DNA from: Methylopila capsulata
GTDB lineage: Bacteria; Pseudomonadota; Alphaproteobacteria; Rhizobiales; Methylopilaceae
Direction of reading: 5' to 3'
Length of the DNA stretch: 64,000 nt
Assembly: GCF_016907975.1 (NCBI RefSeq)
Contig: NZ_JAFBCY010000003.1
Coordinates: forward strand, 682,001 to 746,000
The translations under genes and the position numbers were made by a program. Within the stretch, counting starts at the first letter, position 1. The number at the start of each line of letters is the position of its first letter. Under the pieces are notes generated by a model. The model saw only the letters and a program-made list of their open reading frames with translations, was not told the origin of the DNA and did not search any database. Of this stretch, positions 13,888-29,488 are shown piece by piece.

Positions 13888-15045
13888 TCAGTTCAGCTTG
13901 GGGCACTGCTCGCCGGGGTCGACGTCCTTGAAGGAGCCGACGACCTTGACCGAGCCGTCGCCCTGCACCTGGCCGAGGTACATGGTCAGCGGCGCGTGGT
14001 GCTGCTTCGACATGCTGATCGCGCCGCGCGGGCCGGTGAAGCTGACCGTCGGCAGCGCTTCGAGCACCTTCGCGGTCTCCGTGCCGCCCGCCTTCTCGAC
14101 GGCGGCCTTGTAGAGGTAGATCGCCTCGTACTGCGGCACCGAAAGGTCGTTCGGAGTCTTCAGGCCGGCGCCGAACTTCTTGCTCATCGCGGCGAGGAAG
14201 GTCTTGTTCTCGGGGCTTTCGATGCCGGTGACATAGGAGGCCGAGAGGTAGACGCCCTCGGCGTCCGCGCCCATGCTCTTCGCCGTGCCTTCGTCGACCG
14301 CGAGGTTGGCGTAGGGCAGCGCGACGCCCGCGCCGCGCAGCTGCTTGGTCAGCGTCACGTTCGGCGCGCCGCCGGCGGTCGAGGTGATCAGGGCGTCCGG
14401 CTTGGCGTCCTTGAGCTTCGAAATGATCGCGGTCCAGTCGCTGCCGTCCATCGGCAGATACTCTTCGCCGACGACCTTGCCGCCGATTTTCTCGATGTAG
14501 CTCTTGGTGAACGCAAGCATGCCCCGGCCGAAGGCGTAGTCGCTGCCGATCAGGAAATAGGTCTTGGCGCCCTTGTCCTTGGCGAAGGCGTCGACCACCG
14601 GCGGCACCTGCTGCTCGGGCACCCAGGCGTTGACGAACATGTTCTTGTTGCAGGAGCGGCCCTCGTAGAACGAGGTGTAGATGTACGGCACCTTGCCCTT
14701 GGTGACGGCGGGCAGGCCGGCGTTGCGGGCGGCGCTGGTCTCCATCGAGATCAGCACGTCGACCTTCTTCTGGTAGATCAGGGAGTCGAAGGCCTTCTGG
14801 GCGCCTGCGGCGCCGGAGGCGTCGTCGGCGACCTCGAGCTTGAGCTGGCGGCCGAGCACGCCGCCGGCGGCGTTGATCTCCTCGACGGCGAGTTCGGCCG
14901 ACTGCACGACAGACGGGGCGACGACGCTGTTCGCGCCGGAGAGGCCGACCGGCACGCCGATCACGATCGGTTTGTCGGCCGCGAAGGCGGGCGACGCCGC
15001 GAGCGCGAGAGCGGCGGCGACGCCGGCGAAGTGACGCTTGAGCAT
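13888..15045 (-). CDS. Periplasmic substrate-binding protein, FmdD/UrtA-like (short amides or urea)
   Basis: A 385-residue type-I periplasmic binding protein (Peripla_BP_5/6) for the adjacent Liv-type importer. ATG 15045 gives a clean signal peptide (MLKRHFAGVAAALALAASPA, cleavage at AFA-AD) with AGGAG ten bases upstream. Core segments are IGVPVGLSGANSVVAPSVVQ, AVEEINAAGGVLGRQLKLEV, FYEGRSCNKNMF, YFLIGSDYAFGRGM and SFTGPRGAISMSKQHHAPLTMYLGQV. These resemble urea/short-chain-amide-binding proteins, and also the cytosolic AmiC sensor encoded upstream, which supports amides as ligand. A conserved Cys close to the C-terminus (GEQCPKLN) may pair with the Cys in RSCNKN. Confidence 0.87.
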   Translation of the reverse strand: MLKRHFAGVAAALALAASPAFAADKPIVIGVPVGLSGANSVVAPSVVQSAELAVEEINAAGGVLGRQLKLEVADDASGAAGAQKAFDSLIYQKKVDVLISMETSAARNAGLPAVTKGKVPYIYTSFYEGRSCNKNMFVNAWVPEQQVPPVVDAFAKDKGAKTYFLIGSDYAFGRGMLAFTKSYIEKIGGKVVGEEYLPMDGSDWTAIISKLKDAKPDALITSTAGGAPNVTLTKQLRGAGVALPYANLAVDEGTAKSMGADAEGVYLSASYVTGIESPENKTFLAAMSKKFGAGLKTPNDLSVPQYEAIYLYKAAVEKAGGTETAKVLEALPTVSFTGPRGAISMSKQHHAPLTMYLGQVQGDGSVKVVGSFKDVDPGEQCPKLN

Positions 15046-15092
15046 GGAATATCGGCTCCTCGGAAGCAGGGTGTGACGGCGAGGCATGGGCT

Positions 15093-15938
15093 TCAGCCGT
15101 AAACGTCGCTGCGCCGGTCGCGCAGGACGGAGTTGAACTCGTTGAGGTCCTTGACGGAGGCCTCGTCCAGGTCGATGATCGCAGTGAGCGTCTCGGGCCG
15201 GTCGCGGCTCGCCGGGCCGGCGATCGTCCAGCCCTTCGGCCCGATGATCAGGCTCTGGCCCTCGAAGGGCTGGCCGCGCTCGACGCCGACGCGGTCGGCG
15301 CAGGCGATGAAGATCCCGTTGGAATGCGCCGCCGCGCGGTGCAGCGTGTTGGCCATCGCCGCCTCGCCCTCGGGCTGGCTCGGCATCGGCACCCAGTTCG
15401 TAGGAATGCAGACGATCTCCGCGCCGGCGAGCGCGAGCTGGCGGAAGGTTTCCGGGAACCAGCCGTCGTAACAGATGGCGACGCCGATGGTCCCGATCGC
15501 GGTGTCGAATACGGGAAAGCCGAGATCGCCCTTCTGGAAGAAGATGTTCTCCCGATACCAGAGGTGCGACTTGCGGTAGACGCCGATGAAGCCCTCCGGG
15601 CCGAGGATCATCGCGGAGTTGTAGAGCGCGTCGCCGTCGCGCTCGGCGAAGCCGGCGACGAGGTGGACGCCAAGTTCCTCGGCGAGCGCGCCCCAGGCGA
15701 GCGCGGTCGGCCCGCCCTTTGCGGGCTCGGCCAGCGCGGTCGCCTCCTCCATGCTCTCGAAGACATAGCCGGTGTTGGCGAGCTCCGGCAGCACGATGAG
15801 CCGGCTCCCCGAGGCCGCGGCCGCGCGGATGAGCTCCGACGCCCGCGCGACGTTGTCGGCGACCGCGCCCATCCTTGGCTCGAACTGGATGCAGGACACC
15901 TGCAACGGCGGACGCGCGGGTTCGTTCGCTTGGATCAT
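15093..15938 (-). CDS. Nitrilase-superfamily carbon-nitrogen hydrolase, probable amidase
   Basis: A 281-residue cytosolic nitrilase-fold hydrolase. The full catalytic triad is visible: E52 (VLPELANTGY), K123 (YRKSHLWYRE) and C156 (AICYDGWFPE). ATG 15938 is chosen because GGAG lies five bases upstream and the protein then begins just before the conserved VSCIQFEP strand; an earlier ATG (16037) would read through a terminator and leader hairpins. The gene sits between AmiC/AmiR regulators and an amide-type importer and is preceded by an intrinsic terminator, exactly where aliphatic-amidase genes lie in the Pseudomonas ami system. An amide, nitrile or carbamoyl substrate is therefore likely, but the exact one is not shown by sequence. 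Confidence 0.88.
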   Translation of the reverse strand: MIQANEPARPPLQVSCIQFEPRMGAVADNVARASELIRAAAASGSRLIVLPELANTGYVFESMEEATALAEPAKGGPTALAWGALAEELGVHLVAGFAERDGDALYNSAMILGPEGFIGVYRKSHLWYRENIFFQKGDLGFPVFDTAIGTIGVAICYDGWFPETFRQLALAGAEIVCIPTNWVPMPSQPEGEAAMANTLHRAAAHSNGIFIACADRVGVERGQPFEGQSLIIGPKGWTIAGPASRDRPETLTAIIDLDEASVKDLNEFNSVLRDRRSDVYG

Positions 15939-15947
15939 GTGAGCTCC

Positions 15948-15995
15948 AAAACGCAAAAAGCCCCTGGACGCGGAAGTCATCCGCAGACCAGAGGC
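15948..15995 (-). terminator. Intrinsic terminator (attenuator) in the amidase leader
   Basis: On the minus strand, GCCTCTGG (15995-15988) pairs with CCAGGGGC (15967-15960), enclosing an inner GCGGA/TCCGC stem. It is followed at once by CTTTTTGCGTTTT. The T-tract ends only 10 bases before the amidase start codon, after the whole leader, so it would block expression unless antitermination occurs. AmiR-type ANTAR proteins are known to act on exactly such terminators. Confidence 0.8.
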
Positions 15996-16014
15996 TCCAT
16001 AGCCGAGATGTGAT

Positions 16015-16045
16015 GCAGCAATCTTGCTGCGGGGCAATCTTGCCC
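16015..16045 (-). promoter_or_regulatory. Tandem identical-loop hairpins, candidate AmiR (ANTAR) binding site
   Basis: Two adjacent hairpins, one base apart, each show the same six-base loop AAGATT: GGGC-AAGATT-GCCC (16045-16032) and GCAGC-AAGATT-GCTGC (16030-16015). Twenty bases further is the attenuator. ANTAR antiterminators recognise two tandem hairpins with six-base loops; the published consensus has A at loop position 1 and G at position 4. Here A1 is present but G is at position 3, so the match is good in architecture and partial in sequence. Confidence 0.6.
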
Positions 16046-16111
16046 GAAGTCGCTACGATAGCCGCGATGACGCGGCGAGCAAGACGATAAATGCAGCAGG
16101 ACCTGCTGTAA

Positions 16112-16738
16112 TCATGATCTTTCGGCCAATGAGATGTGCAATCCCAAGCCGCTCATCGCCTCGTGCGCAGCCACCACGCTTTCGGCCACGCTCGCCAGCG
16201 GCACGCGGGCCGCGGTGGCGCGGTCCCGCAACAGCTTGTAGGCCGCGTCCTCGTCGATCCGGTTGAGGTCAGTCAGGAGGCGCACCGCCTTCTCGACCAT
16301 CCGCCGGCCCTTCATGGTGTCTTCGAGCTTGACGATCTTGGCCGCCAGCCGGCCCTCGTAGCCGCGCCGGTAGCGGGCCAGCGCGAACTGGGTCAGCACG
16401 CCGCGCGGCCGGAGCGGCTTGCTCAGCACCCCGTGGGCGTTGAAGTCCACGATCGCCTTAAGCGACGTCGGGCTCTCGTAGGCGACGATGGCGATCACCG
16501 CGGGCTCCGTCTCCTCGATCGAGGGCAGCAGATGCCCGACCTCCGCATCGTCGAGCTGGATGAACAGCGTATCGATGTCCGGCGGCAACGCCGCGGGCGG
16601 CGGCCAGGCCATCGAAACCTCACAGCCGAGACGGCGCAACTGGTCGACCAGCGAGGCGCCCTCCTCGTCGCGGGGATGGACGACCAGCGCCCGGGCGCGG
16701 CGAAGATCCTCGAGGATCCTGCGGGCCGGCCCGCTCAC
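16112..16738 (-). CDS. amiR: AmiR/NasT-type ANTAR antitermination regulator
   Basis: A 208-residue cytosolic RNA-binding antiterminator. Residues about 10-125 form a response-regulator-like pseudo-receiver lacking the usual acidic phospho-acceptor pocket (LVVHPRDEEGASLVDQLRRL...AIVAYES). Residues 125-150 are a coiled-coil linker (EGRLAAKIVKLEDTMKGRR), and the C-terminus is an ANTAR domain (VEKAVRLLTDLNRIDEDAAYKLLRDRA). It overlaps amiC by four bases (ATGA), as expected when sensor and antiterminator are made as a complex. The gene product probably acts on the leader hairpins just downstream (16015-16045). Confidence 0.9.
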   Translation of the reverse strand: MSGPARRILEDLRRARALVVHPRDEEGASLVDQLRRLGCEVSMAWPPPAALPPDIDTLFIQLDDAEVGHLLPSIEETEPAVIAIVAYESPTSLKAIVDFNAHGVLSKPLRPRGVLTQFALARYRRGYEGRLAAKIVKLEDTMKGRRMVEKAVRLLTDLNRIDEDAAYKLLRDRATAARVPLASVAESVVAAHEAMSGLGLHISLAERS

Positions 16739-17889
16739 GAGGCGAGCCCCTCCTCGAGCCAGTTCGCTTCGAACCGCGACGCCGCGAGGTAGGGATCAGG
16801 ACGCACCGGACGTCGGGACCGCCAGACGACGTCGAACTGACCGTCCGCGCGGGCGACGCCGATGCCAGGGGTCAGCCAGATGTGGCGGGTCTCGCCGTCG
16901 AAGGCCAGTTCGCCCTCGGGCGCGGCGAGGCTCTGCCGCATGGCCGCGGCGCTGAGCCGCTCGGCGTCCAGTGTGCCGGCCTCCGCGAGCGCCTTGGCGA
17001 AAAGATGCACCTGCGCATAGGCCGTCTCGGACCACATGCTCGTCGGCCGCTCCTCGCCGAAGCGCGCCCGGAACGCCTGGACGAACCTCCGATTTTCGTC
17101 GCTGTCGAGCTGCTCGAAATAGTGCGCGGCCAGCACGTGGCCGGAGCATCGCTCCGGGCCGATCGCCTGGATCTGGCCCTCCGACATGGTGAGGCTCGCG
17201 ATCGGTCGCCGCGCACGGTCGATCCCGGCGTCGGCATAGGCGCGGTAGAGCCGCTCCGCGCCGCGCCCCACCACGGTCGAGAACACCGCGTCGGGCGCGG
17301 CGCGCAGGATCTCCGCCACCATCGTCTTGTGGGCGTCCTCGCCGGCGTCGAGCGGCGCATAAAGCTCGCCGACGATCGTCCCGCCCTTGGCCTCGATCAG
17401 GTCGCGCATCACCCGGTTGGACTCGCGCGGATAGATGTAGTCCGAGCCGACGATGAAGATGCGCGGCCCGTACTCCTGCAGCAGGAAGTCCGCCAGGGCG
17501 AACACGTTCTGGTTCAGCGTGGCGCCGGTGTAGATGACGTTCTCGGAGTACTCGAACCCTTCGTAGATCGACGGGTACCAGAGCAGCCCGTTGTGCCGCT
17601 CGATGGTCGACAGCACCGACTTGCGGCTCGCCGACAGCGAACAGCCGAAGATCACCCCGACGCCGTCGTCGGCGAGCAGCCGGCGCGCAAACGCGCGGTA
17701 GGCCTCGTTGTCGGCGGCGGGATCGTAGCAGATCGGCTCGATCTGCCGGCCAAGCACGCCCCCCGCGGTGTTGATCTCTTCGATGGCGAGCGCCGTGCCG
17801 AGAAAGTGCTCGGTCTCGGTGACGCCGCTCACCCCGCTGCGCGAGAACAGCACCCCCACCCGCCACGTCGCGTCGTCCTCTTTCGCCAT
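16735..17889 (-). CDS. amiC: AmiC-type cytosolic amide sensor / negative regulator
   Basis: A 384-residue periplasmic-binding-protein fold without a signal peptide, so cytosolic, as for Pseudomonas AmiC, which holds AmiR inactive until it binds a small amide. Close family matches are WRVGVLFSRSGVSGVTE at the N-terminus, CSLSASRKSVLSTIERH, LWYPSIYEGFEYSENVIYTG, IFIVGSDYIYPRESNRVMR, VFSTVVGRGAERLYR, and the C-terminal WRSRRPVRPDPYLAA. The start at 17889 matches the family length; a second ATG at 17904 is possible. It is first in the operon, before amiR. About 350 bp of upstream DNA presumably holds the promoter. Confidence 0.92.
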   Translation of the reverse strand: MAKEDDATWRVGVLFSRSGVSGVTETEHFLGTALAIEEINTAGGVLGRQIEPICYDPAADNEAYRAFARRLLADDGVGVIFGCSLSASRKSVLSTIERHNGLLWYPSIYEGFEYSENVIYTGATLNQNVFALADFLLQEYGPRIFIVGSDYIYPRESNRVMRDLIEAKGGTIVGELYAPLDAGEDAHKTMVAEILRAAPDAVFSTVVGRGAERLYRAYADAGIDRARRPIASLTMSEGQIQAIGPERCSGHVLAAHYFEQLDSDENRRFVQAFRARFGEERPTSMWSETAYAQVHLFAKALAEAGTLDAERLSAAAMRQSLAAPEGELAFDGETRHIWLTPGIGVARADGQFDVVWRSRRPVRPDPYLAASRFEANWLEEGLAS

Positions 17890-17904
17890 CCCTGCCCGTC
17901 TCAT

Positions 17905-18243: not shown

Positions 18244-21200
18244 ATGAAACTCAGCATCGCGGCCGCCGCCGTCGCGGCGTTGGCGGCGTGCGCCGTTTCC
18301 CCGGCGAGCGCGGGGGGCGAAAACGTGTCGGGCAAATGGTCCGGCGTCGTGACGCTGCCTCTGATCCCGTCCTCAGGCGCCGTGCTGGCGGACGGCAAGA
18401 CGCTGCTGTGGTCCGCGGACGACGAGTTCACCTTCGGCGCGGTCGGCCAGGTGAAGGCGCTCCTGTTCGACCCCGCGACGTCGACTTACGTGCGGCAGGA
18501 CGCCGACGTCGGCCACAATATGTTCTGCACCGGCACGACCATGCTCGCGGACGGGCGCGTCCTCGCCAACGGCGGTTCGAACGCCGCGGTGACGAGCATC
18601 TACGATCCGAAGACCAAGAGTTACGCGCGCGCGCAGGACATGAACATCCCGCGCGGCTACAGCGGCAACACGATCCTGGCCGACGGCTCCGTGCTGACGC
18701 TCGGCGGCTCGTGGTCCGGCCAATGGGCGGACCGCAAGGACGGCGAGATCTGGACGCCCGACGCCGGCTGGCGCGTGCTCCCCGGCGTCACCACCAACGG
18801 CATGACCACGCCGGACGCGGCCTCCGGCTTCGCCTACGACAGTCACTACTGGCTGATCCCGGCGGGCAACGGCAAGGTGCTGTTCGCGGGCCCGTCCCCG
18901 GCCATGAAGTGGATCGACGCCACGGGCGGAGGCGCGGTGAGCGACGCCGGCCTACGGGGCGACGACGCCTTCGCGATCAACGGCGTCGCCGCGATGTTCG
19001 ACGCCGGCAAGGTGCTGAAGGCCGGCGGCTCGATCACCTACAACGGCAATCCGGCGCGCGCCGGCGCCTATGTCATCGACGTCTCGACCGGCGACGCGGC
19101 GGTGACCAAGGTCGCGCCGATGGCCTACGCCCGCACCTACCACAACGCGGTCGTGCTGCCTGACGGCGACGTGATGGTCATCGGCGGCCAGACCTACGGC
19201 CAGAACTTCTCGGACTCGAACGCGGTGCTGGCGGCCGAGATCTGGAGCCCGAAGACCAACGCCTTCCGGACGGTCGCGGCCGCCGCACGGCCGCGCAACT
19301 ACCACAGCATCGCGCTTCTGCTTCCTGACGGGCGCGTGCTGTCCGGCGGCGGCGGCCTGTGCGGCTGCTCCGCCGACCATCCCGACGTCCAGATCTACTC
19401 CCCGCCCTATCTCTTCGACCCGAACGGGGCTCCGGCTTCTCGGCCCCGGATCCTGTCGGCGCCGGACGAGTTCGGTTTCGGCGCGGAAGCCGCCGTCGTC
19501 ACCGACCGCGAGGTCGTCGCGTTCTCGCTGGTGCGGATGTCGGCGACCACCCACTCAATCAACAGCGACCAGCGGCGGCTGTCGCTCGCCTTCCGCCGGA
19601 CCGGCGCCAACGCCTACGCCGTCAGCGCGCCCTCGAATCCCGGCTACCTGCTGCCGGGCAACTGGATGCTGTTCGGCCTCGACGCGGCCGGCGTCCCGTC
19701 GGTCGCGAAGATCGTCCATGTCAGCCCCAACAGGGTGGCGTCGATAGTCAGCCCGGGGACGATCGTCGCGAGCGTCGGCGCGGGGCTTCTGGTGGAGCCC
19801 AACGTCGTCCCGCTGTCGAGCGACACTATCTTCAGCGCCGTCGGCCTGCCTGCCGGAATGACGGTCGACCGCAAGACAGGCGCCATTTCCGGCGCGCCCT
19901 CCGCCGCCGGCGCGTTCCAGGCGACGCTGATCGCCACGGCCGGGGGGCAGACGGTCTCGACCGACCTCAAGGTCGCGGTGGACGGCGCGCTGGCCGCCGG
20001 GGACGGCCTCCTCGGCGAGTACTACGCCTCCACGGACCTCACCGGTTCGGTCGCGATGCTCAGGCGCGAGGCGCCCTATTTCTCGTTCCCGCAGACGGGG
20101 CCGGGCGGAAACGTGCCGGGCGCCTTCTCGGCGCGCTGGAGCGGCGAGATCACGGCGCAACGCAGCGGGGTCACCCGGTTCCGGGTCGAATCCGACGACG
20201 GCGTGAGGCTGTGGATCGGCGGCAAGCAGCTCGTGGACGACTGGGTCGCCCACGCGCCGTTCGCCAGGGAAGGTCAGGTCGAGCTGACGGCCGGACAGGC
20301 GGTTCCCGTCTTCGTCGAATACTACAACAGCCGGGACGCCGGCGTGCTCCGCCTGAGCTGGCTCAGACCTGGAGACGCCGACTTCGCTCCCGTTCCGGCG
20401 GCGCAGCTCAGCGGCCCGGCCGCGCGGCTTTCGACTGCGAACCTCGCGCGCGGAAAGACCGCGACCCAGTCGAGCGTCGCGAACGGAGGCGCGCCGGCGC
20501 GCGCCGTCGACGGCGACCCCAACGGCGACTGGGCGGCAGGCTCGGTCACGCACACCGCCGCCGAGGACAATCCGTGGTGGCAGGTCGACCTCGGCGGGCG
20601 CGCGGCGCTCGATTACGTCAGGCTGTGGAAGCGGTCCGACTGCTGCGCGGAGCGGACGAAGAACCTCTCTGTGTTCCTGTCGGCTTCGGACCCGACCGGC
20701 CGCAGCTACGCCGAGCTGATGGCGGACCCCGCCGTCATCAAGCGCTATCTCGGTCCGGACGTGACGATCCCGCAGTTCATCGACGTGCCGCTGGGCGGCG
20801 TCGGGAGGTACCTGCGCGTGCAGGCCGCGGGCGCGGCGACGCTTCAGCTCGCGGAGGTTCAGGCGTTCGGCGTCTTCGCGAACAAGCCGCCGACGCTGAC
20901 GGCGCCCTCCGCGCAATCGGCGGCCGTAGGCGCGGCGGTCTCGCTCGTCGTCAAGGCGACCGATCCGGACCGGGACGCCGTCACCTTTAGCGCGACCGGT
21001 CTTCCCGATGGCCTGACCATCACCGCCACTGGCCGGATCTCGGGAACGCCGACCACGCCCGGATCCTACGTCAGCTCGGTCACGGCGGCAGACGCGCTGG
21101 CGGCGACGACGGCGAGCTTTTCCTGGACCATCACCGACGCCGTCCCGTCCGTGCGGTCTCTCATCGTCAAGCCGGCGCCGGTCGGCAGGACCGTGACCTA

Positions 21201-23289
21201 TGCGCCGAGCATCCTGAACGGCGACGGGGTTCGCTACCGCTGGAGCTTCGGCGACGGCGCGGCCGCCACCGCCTTCTCGGCCAGCCCGGTGACGACGCAT
21301 GCCTTCAAGGCGGCCGGCAGCTTCGACGTCACCTTGACGATGCAGACGGCGAACGGCCGGCAGACGACCTACAGCTTCGACCAGGCGGTCTATGTGAAGC
21401 CGGCCGCCGACGCCCGCGGCGCGACGAGCGGCGCCGCCGGCTACGAGGCGCGCGCCGGAATGTCGCCGCGGCTTTGGATCGCAAACCCCGACAACGACAG
21501 CGTCGCCGTCCTCGACCTCGGAACCAACACGCGCGTCGCGGAGATCCCGGTCGGCGCCTCGCCCCAGAGCCTCGCGATCGCGCCGAGCGGCAAAGTGTGG
21601 GTCGTCAACCGCGACAGCGCGACGGTCAGCGTTATCGATCCGGCGTCGCTCGCGGTCGTCAAGACCATCGCCCTGCCGCCGGCCTCCCGCCCGTTCGGCA
21701 TCGCGTTCGCGAACGGGAACGGGAGCGCCGTGGTCACGCTCGAGGGCCTCGGCCAGGCCGCGTTGATTTATCCTAACGGGGTTTACGGCGCCGCCGCGTC
21801 TGTCGGGCCGTCGCCGCGCTTCATCACCGTCAACCAGGCGCAAGACCGCGTCTACGTCTCCCGCTTCGTAACCGCTCCCCAGCCCGGCGAAGGTACGGCG
21901 GAGGTCAAGAGTGTGGACCCCGCCGGCAATCCGACAGGCGGAGAGGTCCGCGTCGTGACGCTGGACGGGAGCGTCGAGAAGACGATCGTGCTGCGCCACT
22001 CGAGCGCGCCGGACAGCGAGGCCGGCGGGCGCGGCGTGCCGAACTACGTCGGCGCCCTCGCCCTGTCGCCCGACGGCAAGACCGCCTGGGCGCCCTCCAA
22101 GCAGGACAACATCGCCCGCGGGACGCTCCGGGACGGCCAGAACCTGACCTTCCAGAACACCGTGCGCGCGATCGTCTCCAAGATCGACCTCGCGTCCGGC
22201 CAAGAGGATCCGAGCGCGCGGATCGACCTCGACAATTCCGGCGTGGCGAGCGCCGCCGTGATGCATCCGACGGGGGCCTATCTCTTCGTCGCGCTGCAGA
22301 CCACGCGTCAGGTGGCGGTCGTCGACCCGGTCGGCCGGCGCGAGCTCTTCCGTTTCAACGTGGGCCGCGCGCCGTCATCGCTTACGCTCTCGCCGGACGG
22401 CGACAGGCTCTACGTCGGCAACTTCATGGACCGCACGGTGTCCGTCGTGTCCCTGACGTACATCCTCCGCTACGGCCAGATGCGGGAGCGCGTTCTCGCG
22501 ACGATCCCGACAGTCGCGCAGGACAAGCTGTCGCCCACGGTGCTCAAGGGAAAGCAGTTCTTCTACGACGCCGCCGATCTTCGCCTTGCGCGGGACGGCT
22601 ATCTCAGCTGCGCCGCCTGCCACGACCGCGGCGAGGACGACGGCCGCACCTGGGACTTCACCGGGTTCGGCGAAGGCCTGCGCAACACCATCTCGCTCGT
22701 GGGACGCGCCGGGGTCGGCCAGGGCTTCATGCACTGGAGCGCGAACTTCGACGAGGTGCAGGACTTCGAAGGCCAGATCCGCAGCTTCGCCGGAGGCCGA
22801 GGCCTGATGTCAGACGCCGCCTTCGCGCTTGGAACCCGCTCCGATCCGCTTGGAAAGAGCAAGGCGCGCGCTAGCGCCGATCTCGACGCCCTCGCGGCGT
22901 TCGTACAGTCGCTCACCGTCTTCCCGGCGAGCCCCTACGCGCAGGCCGACGGGACGCTGACCCCCGCCGGCGTGACCGGCAAGGCGACGTTCGACCGCCT
23001 GCGCTGCGCCTCCTGCCACGCGGGCGACGCGATGACGATCAGCGGCAACGAGCGTCGGGTGAAGGACGTCGGCACGATCAAGGCCTCCTCGGGACGTCGC
23101 CTCGGCGGGCCGCTGCCCGGCATCGACGTGCCAACGCTGCGCGGCGTCTGGGCGACGGCCCCCTACCTCCACGACGGCTCCGCGCCGACGCTCGCCGACG
23201 CGGTGAAGGCGCACGCCAACGTGCGCGCCTCCGCTGCGGACATCAACGCCCTCGCCGCGTACCTCGAGCAGATCGGGCCGACGCCTTGA
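18244..23289 (+). CDS. Secreted fusion: galactose-oxidase-type copper radical oxidase + PA14 + discoidin + PKD + YVTN propeller + di-haem cytochrome c
   Basis: A 1,681-residue exported protein (ATG 18244 with GGGGG upstream). The N-terminus has a signal peptide with a possible lipobox LAAC (C16) or signal peptidase I site ASA-GG. Residues about 30-500 are a kelch copper radical oxidase with every galactose-oxidase hallmark: C95 (NMFCTG) and Y139 (RGYSGN) for the Tyr-Cys cofactor, W157 (GGSWSG), copper ligands Y353-H354 (RNYHS) and H437 (TTHSIN). Then come an Ig-like domain (500-585), PA14 (about 587-722), F5/8C discoidin (733-877), another Ig-like/cadherin-like domain (880-967), PKD (970-1056), YVTN propeller (1073-1409) and a di-haem cytochrome region with CAACH (1456-1460) and CASCH (1588-1592), ending PYLHDGSAPTLADAV-like as in MauG/CcpA peroxidases. 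Cytochrome and SCO genes overlap downstream. Substrate unknown. Confidence 0.92.
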   Translation: MKLSIAAAAVAALAACAVSPASAGGENVSGKWSGVVTLPLIPSSGAVLADGKTLLWSADDEFTFGAVGQVKALLFDPATSTYVRQDADVGHNMFCTGTTMLADGRVLANGGSNAAVTSIYDPKTKSYARAQDMNIPRGYSGNTILADGSVLTLGGSWSGQWADRKDGEIWTPDAGWRVLPGVTTNGMTTPDAASGFAYDSHYWLIPAGNGKVLFAGPSPAMKWIDATGGGAVSDAGLRGDDAFAINGVAAMFDAGKVLKAGGSITYNGNPARAGAYVIDVSTGDAAVTKVAPMAYARTYHNAVVLPDGDVMVIGGQTYGQNFSDSNAVLAAEIWSPKTNAFRTVAAAARPRNYHSIALLLPDGRVLSGGGGLCGCSADHPDVQIYSPPYLFDPNGAPASRPRILSAPDEFGFGAEAAVVTDREVVAFSLVRMSATTHSINSDQRRLSLAFRRTGANAYAVSAPSNPGYLLPGNWMLFGLDAAGVPSVAKIVHVSPNRVASIVSPGTIVASVGAGLLVEPNVVPLSSDTIFSAVGLPAGMTVDRKTGAISGAPSAAGAFQATLIATAGGQTVSTDLKVAVDGALAAGDGLLGEYYASTDLTGSVAMLRREAPYFSFPQTGPGGNVPGAFSARWSGEITAQRSGVTRFRVESDDGVRLWIGGKQLVDDWVAHAPFAREGQVELTAGQAVPVFVEYYNSRDAGVLRLSWLRPGDADFAPVPAAQLSGPAARLSTANLARGKTATQSSVANGGAPARAVDGDPNGDWAAGSVTHTAAEDNPWWQVDLGGRAALDYVRLWKRSDCCAERTKNLSVFLSASDPTGRSYAELMADPAVIKRYLGPDVTIPQFIDVPLGGVGRYLRVQAAGAATLQLAEVQAFGVFANKPPTLTAPSAQSAAVGAAVSLVVKATDPDRDAVTFSATGLPDGLTITATGRISGTPTTPGSYVSSVTAADALAATTASFSWTITDAVPSVRSLIVKPAPVGRTVTYAPSILNGDGVRYRWSFGDGAAATAFSASPVTTHAFKAAGSFDVTLTMQTANGRQTTYSFDQAVYVKPAADARGATSGAAGYEARAGMSPRLWIANPDNDSVAVLDLGTNTRVAEIPVGASPQSLAIAPSGKVWVVNRDSATVSVIDPASLAVVKTIALPPASRPFGIAFANGNGSAVVTLEGLGQAALIYPNGVYGAAASVGPSPRFITVNQAQDRVYVSRFVTAPQPGEGTAEVKSVDPAGNPTGGEVRVVTLDGSVEKTIVLRHSSAPDSEAGGRGVPNYVGALALSPDGKTAWAPSKQDNIARGTLRDGQNLTFQNTVRAIVSKIDLASGQEDPSARIDLDNSGVASAAVMHPTGAYLFVALQTTRQVAVVDPVGRRELFRFNVGRAPSSLTLSPDGDRLYVGNFMDRTVSVVSLTYILRYGQMRERVLATIPTVAQDKLSPTVLKGKQFFYDAADLRLARDGYLSCAACHDRGEDDGRTWDFTGFGEGLRNTISLVGRAGVGQGFMHWSANFDEVQDFEGQIRSFAGGRGLMSDAAFALGTRSDPLGKSKARASADLDALAAFVQSLTVFPASPYAQADGTLTPAGVTGKATFDRLRCASCHAGDAMTISGNERRVKDVGTIKASSGRRLGGPLPGIDVPTLRGVWATAPYLHDGSAPTLADAVKAHANVRASAADINALAAYLEQIGPTP

Positions 23290-23714
23290 GGCTGAGCCGG
23301 CGGAGCTGGGCGGCGGTCGCGGCGCTGGCGATCGGATCGGTTGGCGCCGCCTCGGCGGCCGCGTTCCTGCCTGGGGTTCGCGGCTACGCGCTCTACCATG
23401 GTTACGCGACGCTGCAGGCCTCGGTCGCCGCGACGGAGGTGCCTTTGCCGACCTCCGCCTCGCGGTGCGTGAACTGCCATGACGCCGCGCCGTCAGGGGC
23501 GCCGCGGCGGGTCGTCCGCCTCGATCGCGCGAGCCTCGTCCAACCCACCGCCCGGCGCGGCGGACCGGTCTCGGCTTACGACGCCGCCTCGTTCTGCGCA
23601 GCGGTCCGCGAGGGCCTCGACCCCTCGTTCGTCATCCTCGACCGAACGATGCCGCGCTTCGCCCTCTCCGACGACGACTGCGGCGCGCTGTGGCGCTACG
23701 TGAGCGCGCGATGA
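23286..23714 (+). CDS. Small exported monohaem cytochrome c
   Basis: A 142-residue protein with an N-terminal hydrophobic segment (residues 8-28, signal peptide or anchor), a single haem-binding motif CVNCH (C61-H65) and a likely axial Met in DRTMPRFALSDDD near residue 122, where monohaem cytochromes carry it. The start is TTG 23286, overlapping the fusion gene stop (TTGA), so translation is coupled. It probably passes electrons from, or to, the di-haem/copper-oxidase fusion towards the respiratory chain. That role is inferred from operon structure. It is unusually rich in Arg/Ala between haem site and C-terminus and I do not recognise a named subfamily. Confidence 0.8.
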   Translation: MRLSRRSWAAVAALAIGSVGAASAAAFLPGVRGYALYHGYATLQASVAATEVPLPTSASRCVNCHDAAPSGAPRRVVRLDRASLVQPTARRGGPVSAYDAASFCAAVREGLDPSFVILDRTMPRFALSDDDCGALWRYVSAR

Positions 23715-24367
23715 GCGTCCGGCGCGCGGCGATCGCCGGGGCGCTGGTCGGCTGCGGGCTCGCCGCCGCAGGTCTCGGCGCCGGCCTTCTGCTCTCGGCC
23801 CAGCGAGCCGCGCCGCCGACGCTTCCGCCCGTCGCCGCAGCGCTGCAGGAGACACATCTGCCATTCGGTCCGATCCGCCCCCCGCGCGCCCTTCCCGCGG
23901 TCGCGCTGAGGGCCGACGACGGCGCCGCGACGACGCTCGCCGCATTGACGCAGGGGCGCTACACGCTGCTGCAGCTGATGTTCACCGGCTGCTCCGTGAC
24001 CTGCCCGATCCAGGGCGCGATCTTCAAAGCGACCCAGGCCGCGCTGACGGCGGAGGGCGTGGAGGCGCAGTTGCTGTCGATCAGCGTGGACGTCGTGGGC
24101 GACACGTCCGAGGCGCTGGCTCGATGGCTGAACGGCTTTGACGCCCGAACGGGCTGGCGCGCCGCGGTCCCCTCCCCCGACGGGCTCGGCCCCTTGATCG
24201 ATGCGCTCAATGGCCGGGGATCCGGCCCGGACGTGCACGACGCCCGGGTCTATCTCCTCGCGCCCTCGGGCAAGCTGATCTTCGTCACGGAGGACATGCC
24301 CAGTCCGCGCTACCTCGCGAAGCTGCTGCGCGACGCCGCCGCCTTCGAGGCGCGCACGCCGGGCTAG
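23711..24367 (+). CDS. SCO1/SenC-family copper chaperone
   Basis: A 218-residue membrane-anchored thioredoxin-fold copper metallochaperone facing the periplasm. One N-terminal membrane segment (residues 6-30) is followed by the SCO core: copper-binding CxxxC at C94-C98 (FTGCSVTCPIQG) and the third ligand H176 (GPDVHDARVYLL). ATG 23711 overlaps the cytochrome stop (ATGA). SCO proteins usually load CuA of cytochrome oxidase, but none is here. Linkage to a copper radical oxidase suggests it metallates that enzyme, as Sco does for GlxA in Streptomyces lividans (established knowledge). It converges with tetR and overlaps it by four bases. Confidence 0.9.
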   Translation: MSVRRAAIAGALVGCGLAAAGLGAGLLLSAQRAAPPTLPPVAAALQETHLPFGPIRPPRALPAVALRADDGAATTLAALTQGRYTLLQLMFTGCSVTCPIQGAIFKATQAALTAEGVEAQLLSISVDVVGDTSEALARWLNGFDARTGWRAAVPSPDGLGPLIDALNGRGSGPDVHDARVYLLAPSGKLIFVTEDMPSPRYLAKLLRDAAAFEARTPG

Positions 24368-25044
24368 ACCGCGCTCTCTTGCGCCGCGCCGTCGCGTCCT
24401 CGCGGGCGCACGCCGTTGAGAAACACGGAAATGCAGTACCGCTGGTGCGCCGCCCGCGACGCGAGGTCGGGCCAGGGGCCTGGCCGGAACGCCGCCGCTC
24501 CCGCCGAGGCGAAGATCAGGTCCATCAGCAAGCGCGCGGTCTGTTCGGCGTCGGCGAAGGCGAGCCGGCCCTCCCGCCGACGCTCGTCGAGCCACTCCGC
24601 AAGGGCGCGGCGCGAAGGCTCGACGCCCTTGGCGACGACGAGATGGTGGACCTCGGGGAAGGCGTCGCCGTCCTTGAGCGCCGCGCGGATGAAGGCGTTC
24701 CGGATGCGATCGCTGTCCTCGTCGATGTCGAGGCGGAAGATTTCCGCGAGCGCGTCTTCGAGCGACATACCGGCGTCGGCAGGCGGCAGCCGAAGCATCT
24801 CCGGGCGATGCGAGTCCACGATCGCGCCGAACAGTTCGGCCTTGTTGGCGAACTGTTCGTAGATCGTGCGCTTCGAGACCTGACAGCGGGCGGCGACCGC
24901 GTTGGTCGTCATCGCGCCGTACCCCGCGTCGACGAAGATCGCGCGCGCCGCGGCGACGATGCGCGCGCGCCGCTCGCCTGACGGCGTCCGCGGCCGACCG
25001 CGTGCGGTTCGGTCGGTTGACGGCGCTGGAGCCGCGTCGGGCAT
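24364..25044 (-). CDS. TetR/AcrR-family repressor of the RND efflux operon
   Basis: A 226-residue repressor from ATG 25044; upstream in-frame ATGs at 25086 and 25098 would lengthen it. The helix-turn-helix is ARAIFVDAGYGAMTTNAVAARCQVSKRTIYEQFANKAELF-like (residues about 35-75), the classic TetR N-terminal domain. The C-terminal ligand domain (AefR/TetR_C type) ends FLNGVRPRGRDGAAQE. It is divergent from the RND pump genes, and the shared 100-bp gap contains a GGTACC pair likely to be its operator. By family behaviour it represses the pump until an inducer binds. Confidence 0.88.
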   Translation of the reverse strand: MPDAAPAPSTDRTARGRPRTPSGERRARIVAAARAIFVDAGYGAMTTNAVAARCQVSKRTIYEQFANKAELFGAIVDSHRPEMLRLPPADAGMSLEDALAEIFRLDIDEDSDRIRNAFIRAALKDGDAFPEVHHLVVAKGVEPSRRALAEWLDERRREGRLAFADAEQTARLLMDLIFASAGAAAFRPGPWPDLASRAAHQRYCISVFLNGVRPRGRDGAAQESAV

Positions 25045-25104
25045 GTTCTGGGAAACCTTCCGAAACCTTTGGGGCGTTGACAGCATGATGCGCCGCACAA
25101 TAGT

Positions 25105-25120
25105 GGTACCTCACGGTACC
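25105..25120. promoter_or_regulatory. Candidate TetR operator
   Basis: GGTACC-TCAC-GGTACC: two copies of a self-palindromic hexamer ten bases apart, centred between tetR and the membrane-fusion-protein gene (start 25145). Its symmetry and location between divergent genes fit an AcrR-type operator. Not matched to any known consensus. Confidence 0.5.
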
Positions 25121-25144
25121 GTAAATAGCGTGGGACGGCGCACA

Positions 25145-26353
25145 ATGACGATCGAACAGCGCGCCTCGTGCGCTCGGCGCGGCTTTTCGGCTGCGGCCTT
25201 AGGGCTCGTCCTCGCCCTCGCGCTCTCCGCATGCGATGGCGAGGACGCCAGCGGCCGTCAGGCTCAACCGGCCCAGCGTCCCACGGTCAGCGTCGTCGTG
25301 ATCGACGGTCGCTCGGTCGCCGTCACCGCCGAGTTGCCCGGGCGCGTGAGCGCCTCGTTGGTCTCCGAGGTCCGGCCGCAGGTCGGCGGCATCATCCAGA
25401 CGCGGTTGTTCAAGGAGGGCAGCGAGGTCAAGCAGGGCGACCCGCTCTACCAGATCGACCCCGCCTCCTATAAGGCGAGCTACGACAGCGCCATCGCGGC
25501 CCAGCAGAAGGCCGAGGCCGCGGTGCCGAGCGCGCAGGCCAAGGTTGACCGGTACCAGGGGCTCGCCAAGGGCTCCGCGGTCTCGAAACAGGATCTCGAC
25601 GACGCCGAGGCCGCTCTCGCCCAGGCGATCGCGGACGTCGCCTCCGCCAAGGCCGAGGTCGACACCGCGAGGATCAATCTGGACTACACGACGATCCGCG
25701 CGCCGATCGGCGGCCGCGTCGACGCGTCGTCGCTGACGCCCGGCGCGCTGGTGACGGCGAGCCAGGATACGGCGCTGACGACCGTGCGCACGCTCGATCC
25801 GATCAACGTCGACGTCACCCAGTCGAGCACCAACCTGCTGCGCTTCAGGGAGGCGGTGAAGACCGGCCGCCTCAAGTTCCGCGGGCCCGACGTGGCCGTG
25901 AAGCTCCATCTCGAGAACGGCTCCACCTATGGCCAGAACGGCGCGCTGCAGTTCGCCGAGGCCAACGTCGACGAGACGACCGGCACCTTCACGGTGCGCG
26001 CCTCGTTCCCCAACCCCGATCGGCTGCTGCTGCCCGGCATGTATGTGCGAGCTGTGATCGAAGAGGGCGTGGCGCCGAACAGCGTGCTCGTCACCCAGCA
26101 AGCGGTCGGCCGCAACACGAAGGGCGAGGCCACCGTCAAGGTCGTCGGGGCCGACAGCAAGATCGAAGAGCGCGTGATCGTGGTCGGCCGCCAGATCGGC
26201 AATTCCTGGCTCGTCGACCAGGGACTGAAGGCCGGCGACAAGGTCGTCGTCGAGGGCGGCCAGAACGTTCGCGCGGGTCAGGAGGTGACGGCGGCCGAGG
26301 TCTCGGTGGACGACGCCACCGGCGACATTCGCGATGCGGCTCACAAGGACTGA
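25145..26353 (+). CDS. RND efflux periplasmic adaptor (membrane fusion lipoprotein), AcrA/MexA type
   Basis: A 402-residue periplasmic adaptor linking the inner-membrane RND pump to the outer-membrane channel. ATG 25145 yields a lipoprotein signal with lipobox LSAC (C30). Landmarks are the first lipoyl half (EVRPQVGGIIQTRLFKEGSEV), a coiled-coil hairpin (residues about 105-180), the second lipoyl half (INLDYTTIRAPIGGRV), the beta-barrel (VRASFPNPDRLLLPGMYVRA) and the membrane-proximal domain (GNSWLVDQGLKAGDKVV). First gene of a tripartite pump operon; the RND gene starts six bases after its stop. Confidence 0.93.
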   Translation: MTIEQRASCARRGFSAAALGLVLALALSACDGEDASGRQAQPAQRPTVSVVVIDGRSVAVTAELPGRVSASLVSEVRPQVGGIIQTRLFKEGSEVKQGDPLYQIDPASYKASYDSAIAAQQKAEAAVPSAQAKVDRYQGLAKGSAVSKQDLDDAEAALAQAIADVASAKAEVDTARINLDYTTIRAPIGGRVDASSLTPGALVTASQDTALTTVRTLDPINVDVTQSSTNLLRFREAVKTGRLKFRGPDVAVKLHLENGSTYGQNGALQFAEANVDETTGTFTVRASFPNPDRLLLPGMYVRAVIEEGVAPNSVLVTQQAVGRNTKGEATVKVVGADSKIEERVIVVGRQIGNSWLVDQGLKAGDKVVVEGGQNVRAGQEVTAAEVSVDDATGDIRDAAHKD

Positions 26354-26359
26354 TCGCCC

Positions 26360-29300
26360 ATGTCCCGCTTCTTCATCGATCGCCCGATCTTCGCCTGGGT
26401 GCTGGCGATCGCAGTGATGCTCGGCGGCGCGCTCGCCATCGTGAACCTGCCGATCTCGCAGTATCCCGAGATCGCGCCGACGACCGTCAACATCTCCGCC
26501 ACCTACTCCGGCGCGGACGCGCAGACCATCGAGAACTCGGTGACCAAGGTCATCGAGCAGGGCATGACCGGGCTCGACAACCTGGACTACATGACCTCGA
26601 CCTCGACCTGGTCCGGCTCGGCGGAGATCAAGATCACCTTCACCAACGCGGCCGATCCCGACGTCGCGCAGATGCAGGTCCAGAACAAGCTCAACCTCGT
26701 CGAGTCGCAACTGCCGCAGGCCGTCCGCGACGTCGGGCTGACGGTGACGAAGTCGACCGGCGGCTTCCTTCTGGTCGCGGCCTTCACCTCGGAAGACGGG
26801 CGGCTGAACTCGACCGATCTCGCCGACTACGTCGACTCCACGCTCAACGACACGCTGAAGCGCATCGAAGGCGTCGGCCAGACCCAGCTGTTCGGCTCCG
26901 GCTACGCCATGCGGATCTGGCTCGATCCGGCGAAGCTCCAGAAGTACGCGCTGATGCCGAGCGACGTGACCTCCGCGATCGAGGCGCAGAACACGCAGGT
27001 CTCCGCGGGACAACTCGGCGGCCTGCCGTCGGTCAGGGGCCAGAAGCTCAACGCGACGATCACCGCGAAAAGCCGGCTGCAGACGCCGCAGCAGTTCGAG
27101 AACATCATCCTCAAGAGCGCCGAGGGCGGCTCCATCGTCCGCCTCAACGACGTCGCGGCCGTCGAGCTCGGCGCTGAGGACTACACCACCACCGCGTCCT
27201 ACAACGGCAAGAACACCGCCGGTCTCGCGGTCAGCCTCGCGACCGGCGCCAACGCGCTCGACACGGCCTCCGCCGTGAAGGCTGCGATCGAACGTCTGAA
27301 GGCGACCTTCCCCGAGGGCGTCGAGGTCTACTACCCCTACGACACCACGCCGTTCGTCCGGCTCTCGATCGAGGAGGTGGTGAAGACCCTGCTCGAGGCG
27401 ATCGTGCTCGTCTTCGTGGTGATGCTGGTCTTCCTCCAGAATCTGCGCGCGACGCTGATCCCGACGCTCGCCGTGCCTGTCGTGCTGCTCGGAACCTTCG
27501 GCGTGCTGGCGCTCGCCGGCTACACCATCAACACGCTGACCATGTTCGCGATGGTGCTCGCCATCGGCCTGCTCGTCGACGACGCCATCGTGGTCGTCGA
27601 GAACGTCGAGCGGGTGATGGAGGAGGAGAAGCTTCCGCCAAAGGACGCCACCATCAAGTCCATGCACGAGATCACGGGCGCGCTGGTCGGCATCGCCCTG
27701 GTGCTCTCGGCGGTGTTCGTGCCGATGGCGTTCTTCTCGGGCTCGGTCGGCGTCATCTACCGGCAGTTCTCGGTCACGATCGTCAGCGCGATGGCTCTCT
27801 CCGCCCTCGTGGCGCTGATCCTGACGCCCGCGCTCTGCGCCACGCTGCTGAAGCCGAAAAAGCATGGCCCCCGGCGCGGCTTTCCGGGCTGGTTCAACCG
27901 AACGTTCGACAGGCTCGCGACGGGCTATCGCAACGCCGTGGGCGGACTGGTCCGACGCTCACTCCGCGCGCTGCTGGCGTTTGCGGTGATCTGCGGCGCG
28001 ACGGCGTGGCTGTTCGCCAAGCTGCCGAGTTCGTTCCTCCCCGAGGAGGACCAGGGCATGCTCATCACGGCGGTGCAGATGCCGGTCGGCGCGACCGCCG
28101 ACCGGACGCTGAACGCGCTGAAGCAGGTTCGCGAATACTACATGACCAAAGAGGCGGACGCCGTCGACGGCGTGTTTTCCAGCGTCGGCTTCGGTTTCGG
28201 CGGGTCGGGCCAGAACGTCGGCATCGCCTTCATCAAGCTCAAGGAGTTCGCCAAGCGGAAGGACGCCAGCCTCTCGGCGCAAGCGGTCGCGCGCCGCGCG
28301 CAGGCGGCGTTCTCCGCGATCCGCGATGGGCAGATCTTCGCGCTGGCGCCGCCCGCGATCCAGGGCTTCGGCAACAACAGCGGCTTCAGCTTCTATCTGC
28401 AGGACATCAATGGCGCGGGCCACGCGGCGCTGATGGCGACCCGGAACAGGCTGCTCGGCGAGGCCGCCCAGAACGCCGCTCTGGTGGGCGTCCGGCCGAA
28501 CGGCATGGAGGACACGCCGCAGTACTCGGTCGCGATCGACCAGGAGAAGGCGAGCGCCTACGACCTTAACCTGTCCGACGTCGACACCACGCTCTCCACC
28601 GCCTGGGGCGGCGCCTACGTCAACGATTTCATCGACCGCGGCCGCGTGAAGACCGTCTATGTGCAGGCCGACGCGGCGTTCCGCATGCAGCCGGACCACC
28701 TCGGCCTCTGGTACGTCCGCAATTCGAACAGCGAGATGGTGCCGTTCTCCGCTTTCGCGACGGGCGACTGGAGCTACGGCTCCCCTCGGCTCGAGCGCTA
28801 CAACGGCTCCTCCGCCGTTGAGATCCAGGGCACAGCGGCGCCGGGCGTCAGCTCCGGCGACGCGATGGACGAGATCGACCGCATGATCGCGGCGCTGCCG
28901 CCGGGCTACGCCCACGAATGGACCGGCCTGTCGCACCAGGAAAAGCTCTCGGGAAGCCAGGCGACCGCGCTCTACGCAATTTCGATCCTCGTCGTCTTCC
29001 TCTGCCTCGCAGCGCTCTACGAGAGCTGGTCGGTCCCGCTCGCCGTCATGCTCGCCGTGCCGATCGGCGTGTTCGGTGCGGTCGCCGCCGCGACGCTCTT
29101 CGGCCAGACGAACGACGTCTACTTCAAGGTTGGCCTGCTCACGACGATCGGCCTCGCGGCGAAGAACGCGATCCTGATCGTCGAGTTCGCGATCGAGCGG
29201 CAGGCGGCGGGCCAGGGCCTGGTGGAGGCGACGCTCGAAGCGGCGCGTCAGCGCCTGCGGCCGATCCTGATGACCTCCTTCGCCTTCATCCTGGGCGTCA

Positions 29301-29485
29301 CGCCGCTCGCCATCGCCAGCGGCGCCGGCTCAGGGGCGCAGAACTCGATCGGCATCGGGGTCATGGGCGGCATGATCGCGGCCACCCTGCTCGGGGTGTT
29401 CTTCGCGCCGCTGCTTTACGTGCTGGTCCGTCGGCTCTTCCCGGGCCGACCCGCGGCCGCCGCCGCCACCCCGTCGGAGGCCTGA
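26360..29485 (+). CDS. RND multidrug efflux transporter, HAE1 (AcrB/MexB) family
   Basis: A 1,041-residue inner-membrane proton-drug antiporter of normal family length. The N-terminus [20 protein letters not shown] is typical. The proton-relay Asp pair is in [17 protein letters not shown] (TM4), and the porter and docking domains lie between TM1-2 and TM7-8. [16 protein letters not shown] is the TM10-11 repeat and [19 protein letters not shown] the TM11-12 motif. It is encoded between adaptor and outer-membrane channel genes. Substrates cannot be deduced; the HAE1 branch usually exports hydrophobic and amphiphilic compounds. Confidence 0.95.
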
Positions 29486-29488
29486 ACG

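Follow-up and report, generated by a model that had tools for sequence, protein, structure and literature searches.

A copper radical oxidase joined in one chain to a hydrazine synthase-like di-haem module in Methylopila capsulata

Copper radical oxidases (CROs) serve as biocatalysts, but their radical, whose couple lies at about +0.4 V, is lost, and an activator such as a peroxidase has to be supplied. Here we describe a gene of Methylopila capsulata, located within a stretch of 64,000 nucleotides (“the window”; contig NZ_JAFBCY010000003.1, positions 682,001 to 746,000), that joins a predicted CRO to a di-haem cytochrome module in a single chain. The closest described systems consist of separate proteins. 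In Streptomyces lividans, maturation of the CRO GlxA requires both DtpA, a monohaem peroxidase of the DyP type, and the copper chaperone Sco; sco and dtpA mutants are perturbed in GlxA maturation, and in the authors' view DtpA probably also removes the H2O2 made by GlxA (PMC4736821). In Colletotrichum, two genes encode a CRO (AlcOx) and a fungal class II peroxidase (Tandem Peroxidase), and the peroxidase moves the oxidase out of its Cu(II)-non-radical state toward the radical one (PMC9770985). Glyoxal oxidase, finally, is reactivated in vitro by horseradish peroxidase plus ABTS (PMC10928124).

What links the M. capsulata gene to the Streptomyces system is the dependence, there, of CRO maturation on a haem peroxidase and a SCO chaperone; what links it to the Colletotrichum system is a dedicated haem partner that brings the CRO into its active radical form. 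The haem part itself leads to hydrazine synthase (HZS), whose gamma chain has a bis-His haem II, the bis-His haem lying near -330 mV (PMC12607021). Distant homologues of fused HZS beta-gamma are highly prevalent among environmental bacteria (PMC12758564).

A copper radical oxidase and two haem sites in one frame

Positions 18244-23289 of the window (forward strand) form one open frame encoding a chain of 1,681 amino acids, for which Pfam and NCBIfam recovered all modules named in the initial annotation, that is a CRO followed by PA14, discoidin, Ig-like, PKD, YVTN and di-haem modules (Table 1). Residues 29-494 match galactose oxidases (phmmer, 1.3e-122 to 9g8h), as do residues 29-493 (2.4e-98 to 1gof), and Pfam identifies a kelch region and a galactose oxidase-like E-set at residues 400-493. 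The six residues proposed at the outset as a complete galactose-oxidase active site (C95, Y139, W157, Y353, H354 and H437) all fall in motifs aligned with solved galactose oxidases, which bears the proposal out, and C95 and Y139 align as the Tyr-Cys pair. Judged by alignment, the domain has what characterises family AA5, a Cys-Tyr pair, an axial Tyr and two His on a kelch propeller plus E-set, in common with 1gof, 9g8h and bacterial GlxA; unlike in these enzymes, the chain continues into the propeller, the di-haem domain and further modules.

The five Cu/cofactor residues are retained in 15/15 fused and 27/27 unfused CROs and in 12/12 distinct further CROs. The stacking Trp (W157), which galactose oxidase has in common with the group of the window, is present in six fusions (window, L038, L010, L039, L055 and L124; L and G numbers denote loci and genomes), the remaining 11 having other residues at this position; by this residue the window CRO belongs to the galactose oxidase subgroup. 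The two CxxCH motifs are separated by 127 residues, confirming the CxxCH-x127-CxxCH spacing read initially, and CCP_MauG (Pfam) matches residues 1436-1490 with 26.3 bits (cut-off 25.6). The alignments and motifs thus show an intact predicted Cu/Tyr-Cys site and two predicted c-haem sites within the same chain.

Table 1. Features of the fusion gene and of the two genes that follow it. Positions refer to the window. Residue tallies comprise 39 modules (17 fusions, 6 other in-clade modules and 16 modules outside the clade).
Feature	Position	Strand	Evidence or conservation
CRO - PA14 - F5/8C - Ig-like - PKD - YVTN propeller - di-haem fusion, 1,681 aa	18244..23289	+	
N-terminal export signal, candidate, type I or lipoprotein	18244..18315	+	By eye
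CRO domain, residues 29-494	18328..19725	+	Pfam, phmmer
PA14 module, residues 588-713	20005..20382	+	Pfam
F5/8 type C (discoidin) module, residues 740-863	20461..20832	+	Pfam F5/8C
Ig-like (He_PIG) module, better of two stretches	20887..21135	+	Pfam
PKD module, residues 978-1041, ahead of propeller	21175..21366	+	Pfam
YVTN beta-propeller, HZS beta-like	21469..22455	+	NCBIfam YVTN repeats, AlphaFold/Foldseek
Di-haem domain, HZS gamma/CCP-like	22528..23268	+	Pfam, NCBIfam, phmmer, hhalign
Haem 1 site CAACH, residues 1456-1460	22609..22623	+	
H1497-W1498; W1498 on the inter-haem Trp of CCPs	22732..22737	+	H in 38/39, W in 38/39 modules
Q1511, at distal Gln position	22774..22776	+	Q in 22/23 in-clade, 2/16 outside
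F1515, at CCP distal Pro position	22786..22788	+	F or L in 17/17 fusions
L1521, at CCP catalytic Glu position	22804..22806	+	L in 17/17 fusions
Haem 2 site CASCH, residues 1588-1592	23005..23019	+	
H1657, candidate haem 2 distal ligand	23212..23214	+	H in 23/23 in-clade, 2/16 outside
Small monohaem cytochrome c (CVNCH), 142 aa, TTG start	23286..23714	+	
SCO1/SenC copper chaperone	23711..24367	+	Pfam PF02630 E 8.1e-10 on 23690-24364

A hydrazine synthase-like C-terminal half with altered haem pockets

We assign the C-terminal half, on sequence comparison, as HZS-beta-gamma-like within the superfamily of the cytochrome c peroxidases (CCPs) and MauG. Its best NCBIfam match is the HZS beta-gamma fusion model (6.5e-23, at 80.8 bits against a cut-off of 1250), and the top PDB relative of the di-haem part is HZS gamma (5c2v_C, phmmer 5.5e-15), followed by di-haem peroxidases. 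An AlphaFold model of residues 1060-1681 (alignment of 16 rows; pTM 0.85) resembles HZS beta across the propeller (Foldseek TMt 0.75); among its Foldseek matches the YVTN/PKD surface-layer protein 1l0q ranks first, and the best 50 do not include HZS gamma. Superfamily membership follows from the two CxxCH sites in a CCP-type domain, recognised by Pfam and by hhalign; in the latter, the profile of 12 CCP-family proteins that relatives in the order encode is matched with a probability of 99.9%. The ending had initially been called MauG/CcpA-like, which holds for the superfamily but not for the closest relatives, as HZS beta and gamma match better than MauG/CcpA.

With HZS beta/gamma (5c2v) and the fused environmental homologues the module has in common a YVTN propeller followed by a gamma-type di-haem domain of the CCP kind. 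It differs in being attached to a CRO and in lacking any Cys between residues 1460 and 1588, where HZS gamma has the extra Cys165, the third covalent Cys of haem gamma-I. The candidate haem 2 His lies 14 residues past the HDG His, compared to about 21 in HZS gamma. Seven of the 16 modules outside the clade have a His 20 residues past the HDG His, about the place of the HZS gamma haem-II ligand.

The haem pockets depart from those of peroxidases in defined positions. The module has the two CxxCH sites, the inter-haem Trp and the distal Gln in common with bacterial di-haem CCP, MauG and BthA, in the last of which Gln267 is followed, 4 and 10 residues on, by Pro271 and Glu277 (PMC6405878). In the profile alignment the latter two positions correspond to F1515 and L1521. 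Whereas Gln, Pro and Glu are found in 9/12, 9/12 and 10/12 of the comparison CCP-family proteins, the fusions keep the Gln (17/17, and 5/6 of the other in-clade modules) and have replaced the Pro and the Glu. The haem 2 position matching H1657 is Met in five and Tyr in seven of the 12 comparison proteins but His in all 17 fusions and in 6/6 other in-clade modules. The term “peroxidase-like” used for the module initially is therefore apt for the inter-haem Trp and the distal Gln but not for the other distal residues or for haem 2, and a plain MauG/CcpA peroxidase, with two distal residues and the haem 2 Met/Tyr replaced, was not accepted. H1497, E1504 and D1507 are each found in 38 or more of the 39 modules.

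One module clade beside several oxidase lineages

The fusion frame is genuine and rare. It is present as a whole in 3 of the 13 searched genomes of the genus (G000, G012 and G013) and, at 57% identity, in Methylobrevis albus (G110; L025, L039). A survey of 397 genomes of the order, limited to the two top candidates of each genome, returned 20 genomes with a match at E 1e-30 and five with the fusion, including G008, and in a class sample of 385 genomes searched with the C-terminal module the window's own genome was the sole match at 1e-60. The copy in G008 (L011, L020 and L023) is frame-broken, perhaps by sequencing error, in a single-contig genome that is 88% complete.

A contig scan with an alignment of the C-terminal module yielded 15 loci, six of them with a CRO in the same frame; re-searching 13 of these genomes gave 23 modules, with more fusions among them. 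PF09118 had 27 matches across 14 genomes, and 14 of these matches lie within fusions. Three further group searches at 1e-100 (3/321, 9/330 and 2/331 genomes, each count including the query genome) added 12 new modules. Across all surveys we found 17 distinct intact CRO fusions (window, L038, L010, L039, L040, L041, L042, L045, L054, L055, L056, L057, L058, L061, L062, L122 and L124), in hosts that include genomes labelled as Methylopila, Methylobrevis, a “Vitreoscilla” metagenome-assembled genome (MAG), a Pseudomonadota MAG, two Granulosicoccaceae MAGs and two Chloroflexota MAGs. The initial annotation had suggested surveying other genomes for the domain order, and CRO, propeller and di-haem domain indeed follow each other identically in 17/17 fusions.

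Between these constant parts the chains vary. The linker from CRO to module spans 102 to 583 amino acids (15 fusions), and PKD was found by Pfam in nine of the ten fusions scanned outside Methylopila/Methylobrevis (all but L056, L061 and L062), with none in L122 at E 1e-4; in eight of the nine it lies directly ahead of the propeller. The carbohydrate/surface modules emphasised initially are present in the window fusion but are variable and missing from the CRO-to-propeller linker of compact members; L054 and L058 have none between CRO and PKD, and we rejected these modules as a core part. By eye, the export signal of the window fusion contains LAAC, a Cys that the Methylobrevis copy lacks, L042 and L045 end in hydrophobic-plus-basic tails resembling surface-anchoring signals, and L040, L041 and L129 have lipobox-like N-termini; from these tails and starts, anchoring seems to vary among members.

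The two halves have different histories. In a tree of 42 CRO domains (15 fused, 27 unfused) the fused set needs six changes, and fused CROs as one clade appear in 0/200 bootstrap trees and are rejected by the approximately unbiased test (p 1.81e-6, lnL difference 543). The module tree (27 modules), in contrast, places the 15 fused modules together with L059, which is truncated by a contig end, on one side of a branch with support 94/93 (92/91 without L059), and in the enlarged tree a clade with support 98/94 holds all 17 fused modules. Individual loci show the same discord: L045 and L062 have sister modules although their CROs stand apart, and the L054 module groups with the Methylopila type (weak support) while its CRO does not. 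This suggests that a single module lineage exchanged its CRO domain, or acquired one, more than once; the tree-change counts do not separate gain from loss. The trees and alignments thus show that one module clade is paired, time and again, with members of several CRO lineages.

Placement of the 12 new modules relied solely on the haem half and preceded the look-up of CROs, frame lengths being known already. Seven fell inside the clade, comprising two CRO fusions (L122 and L124), four modules without a CRO and one (L133) cut by a contig end; the five outside include no fusion. In total the clade contains 17 fused, four CRO-less and two truncated modules, compared to 0/16 fused modules outside. 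The four CRO-less modules (L129-L132) form one branch, come from the order of G399 and have frames of 735-864 amino acids with lipobox-like starts; they weaken a strict tie of the clade to fused CROs, which we had considered. Their four genomes, however, have two to three PF09118 CRO matches each elsewhere, with intact Cu-site residues in all nine CROs examined (of 10), whereas none turned up in nine genomes whose detected modules all lie outside the clade (five from the first survey, four from the later one). This contrast of 4/4 to 0/9, which leaves out the genomes of L044 and L051 and rests on the top-scoring module candidates of each genome, fits a haem module serving CROs in trans. A Fisher comparison of 16/17 against 0/9 genomes was set aside, because any genome with a fusion necessarily has a CRO, and so was the accompanying tree, two rows of which (L139 and L140) are duplicates. 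G1627, with a truncated module, has no PF09118 match.

Outside the clade, the modules of L043, L047, L048, L049, L052 and L125 are preceded by Big_5 rather than a CRO, and those of L047, L052 and L125 also by LVIVD repeats. The module of L046 (5420-9625, forward strand), just outside the CRO clade, comes with FG-GAP repeats and lies in the same genome (G403) as the fusion L061; FG-GAP genes lie beside HZS-like genes (PMC12758564).

Operon, proposed mechanism and competing explanations

Three successive genes overlap here, beginning with the fusion gene. Its stop overlaps the start of the monohaem cytochrome c gene as TTGA, and the stop of the latter overlaps the start of the SCO gene as ATGA; the cytochrome matches Pfam Cytochrome_CBB3 with E 0.014, below cut-off. 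Both genes follow 6/6 galactose-oxidase-type fusions (window, L038, L010, L039, L055 and L124), and L054 has a SCO gene with no cytochrome nearby. A neighbourhood common to all fusions was thus not found, ten loci showing neither gene with the queries used (for L061, 385 bases downstream were covered). SCO also adjoins 5/15 unfused CRO loci examined (L002, L013, L016, L026 and L027), while the cytochrome gene was found at no unfused locus examined; SCO therefore tends to accompany the CRO, and the cytochrome the galactose-oxidase-type fusion.

Beyond the operon, a frame beside the SCO gene (24364-25098, reverse strand) reads by eye like a TetR-type regulator, and an RND efflux set with a CusB/HlyD-like adaptor, an AcrB-type pump and an outer-membrane channel occupies 24902-30976 (forward strand). 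Upstream (13888-17904, reverse strand) are two periplasmic binding proteins, a carbon-nitrogen hydrolase and an AmiR/ANTAR regulator, with no evident link to the fusion.

That the oxidase and the haem part belong together, as the initial annotation implied, is supported by the 17 fusions with one module clade across CRO lineages, by the CROs that each of the four genomes with an unfused in-clade module encodes at another place, and by the SCO gene in the operon. Three candidate roles had been named for the module in the initial annotation: destroying H2O2, taking electrons to the respiratory chain, or helping to form the Tyr-Cys cofactor. We consider it probable that the haem module functionally serves the CRO. 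Our preferred reading, in brief, is a haem partner built into the chain that would maintain CRO activity, remove its H2O2 or do both. In the mechanism that we propose, SCO would load copper into the CRO, which would work outside the cytoplasm, oxidising a primary alcohol or sugar group and yielding H2O2; the small monohaem cytochrome would supply electrons to the di-haem module, which would reduce this H2O2, and its oxidised haem state would convert inactive Cu(II)-non-radical CRO back to the active Cu(II)-radical form. The module would then do, from within the chain, what separate haem peroxidases do for the CROs of Streptomyces and Colletotrichum. Electron exchange between the two parts, its direction and H2O2 as the haem substrate are what we infer here. 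The full statement, a CRO with a covalent HZS-beta-gamma-like di-haem redox partner that both reduces peroxide and reactivates the CRO, falls a little short of an even chance in our judgement, and the particular direction of electron flow is proposed tentatively. More speculative is the wider picture of a self-servicing CRO with built-in activase and peroxide sink, a dedicated cytochrome and SCO, and one module lineage recombined onto several CROs and acting in trans when unfused; we regard it as possible but doubtful.

Several observations weigh against the proposed mechanism. With the Glu and Pro replaced, peroxide chemistry would need another acid-base group, for which the conserved H1497, E1504 and D1507 are candidates; these three residues are common to modules without a CRO, suggesting that the haem 1 chemistry is not CRO-specific. 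A joint AlphaFold model of a 1,200-residue stretch of L040 (7 rows) reached a pTM of 0.43 and left the haem part unfolded; it carries no weight for or against a fixed packing of the CRO on the haem module. No CRO accompanies L129-L132, either in frame or within the 17 kb examined; the four genomes of the trans pattern represent one branch of the module tree, and the count is uncorrected for the CRO base rate of their order. Lastly, neither cytochrome nor SCO was found near 10/17 fusions with the queries used.

Among the alternatives, a copper-radical dehydrogenase fares best. Here the di-haem module would re-oxidise the CRO and pass the electrons through the monohaem cytochrome to the respiratory chain, with little or no H2O2. 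This would account for the overlapping cytochrome gene, present at all six galactose-oxidase-type fusions, and is consistent with an inter-haem Trp that is kept while the peroxidase Glu and Pro are replaced. H1657, however, suggests a bis-His haem 2 of probably low potential, and if the -330 mV of the HZS gamma haem is set against the CRO couple quoted above, oxidation of the CRO by the resting haems would be uphill; nor was the cytochrome gene found near 11/17 fusions. We consider this explanation unlikely.

Alternatively, the haem module might, as proposed for DtpA, set the Cu redox state or oxidise the site during copper loading and Tyr-Cys formation, with little role in turnover. The SCO gene in the same operon and the GlxA maturation defects of the S. 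lividans sco and dtpA mutants (PMC4736821) are in line with such a maturation role. Yet added copper rescues the Streptomyces dtpA phenotype (PMC4736821), unfused CROs of the genus and order retain the Cu-site residues, and SCO stands beside 5/15 unfused loci without a module. Because unfused CROs are intact, some with SCO but without the module, the module does not seem to be generally needed for maturation, and we judge a role confined to it quite unlikely.

Purely structural pairing, an exported scaffold on which the oxidase and a generic di-haem module have their anchoring and carbohydrate-binding modules in common but are not redox-coupled, appears improbable. Related modules do bear other N-termini (LVIVD repeats, FG-GAP, Big_5), linkers vary in length and four in-clade modules stand without a CRO, but one clade holds all 17 CRO fusions, against 0/16 outside, and the CRO-less in-clade modules occur in CRO-bearing genomes (4/4) while the outside ones do not (0/9), with the caveat of the single branch and the base rate. 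An assembly or reading-frame artefact joining two genes, which the initial annotation had named as one way its reading might fail and for which nothing speaks beyond the frame-broken G008 copy, has practically no probability left, being contradicted by three whole-frame orthologues (G013, 91% identity; G012, 86%; M. albus, 57%) and 13 more distant fusions.

The initial annotation knew of no characterised enzyme with this architecture, and we likewise found none in the titles and abstract openings searched, where subscription journals are thinly covered; these do not describe the CRO/di-haem fusion, its spread or its operon, and no such fusion is described in the portions available of PMC12758564, PMC12607021, PMC11267884, PMC9770985, PMC10928124, PMC4736821 and PMC6405878. 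The text available of PMC12758564, which deals with the HZS-like homologues, contains no mention of galactose, kelch or PA14. The parts are known already; the combination, its spread and its operon are new within the literature searched.

A CRO that carries a haem partner by nature would reveal evolution's answer to radical loss and provide a single-chain test system. The coupling of CRO activation to haem proteins, so far seen in Streptomyces and fungi, becomes testable within one polypeptide. For part of the widespread HZS-beta-gamma-like proteins outside anammox bacteria, the fusion points to a candidate role in serving a partner metalloenzyme, and the self-servicing CRO outlined above, if true, would be a further, independent solution to keeping a CRO alive.

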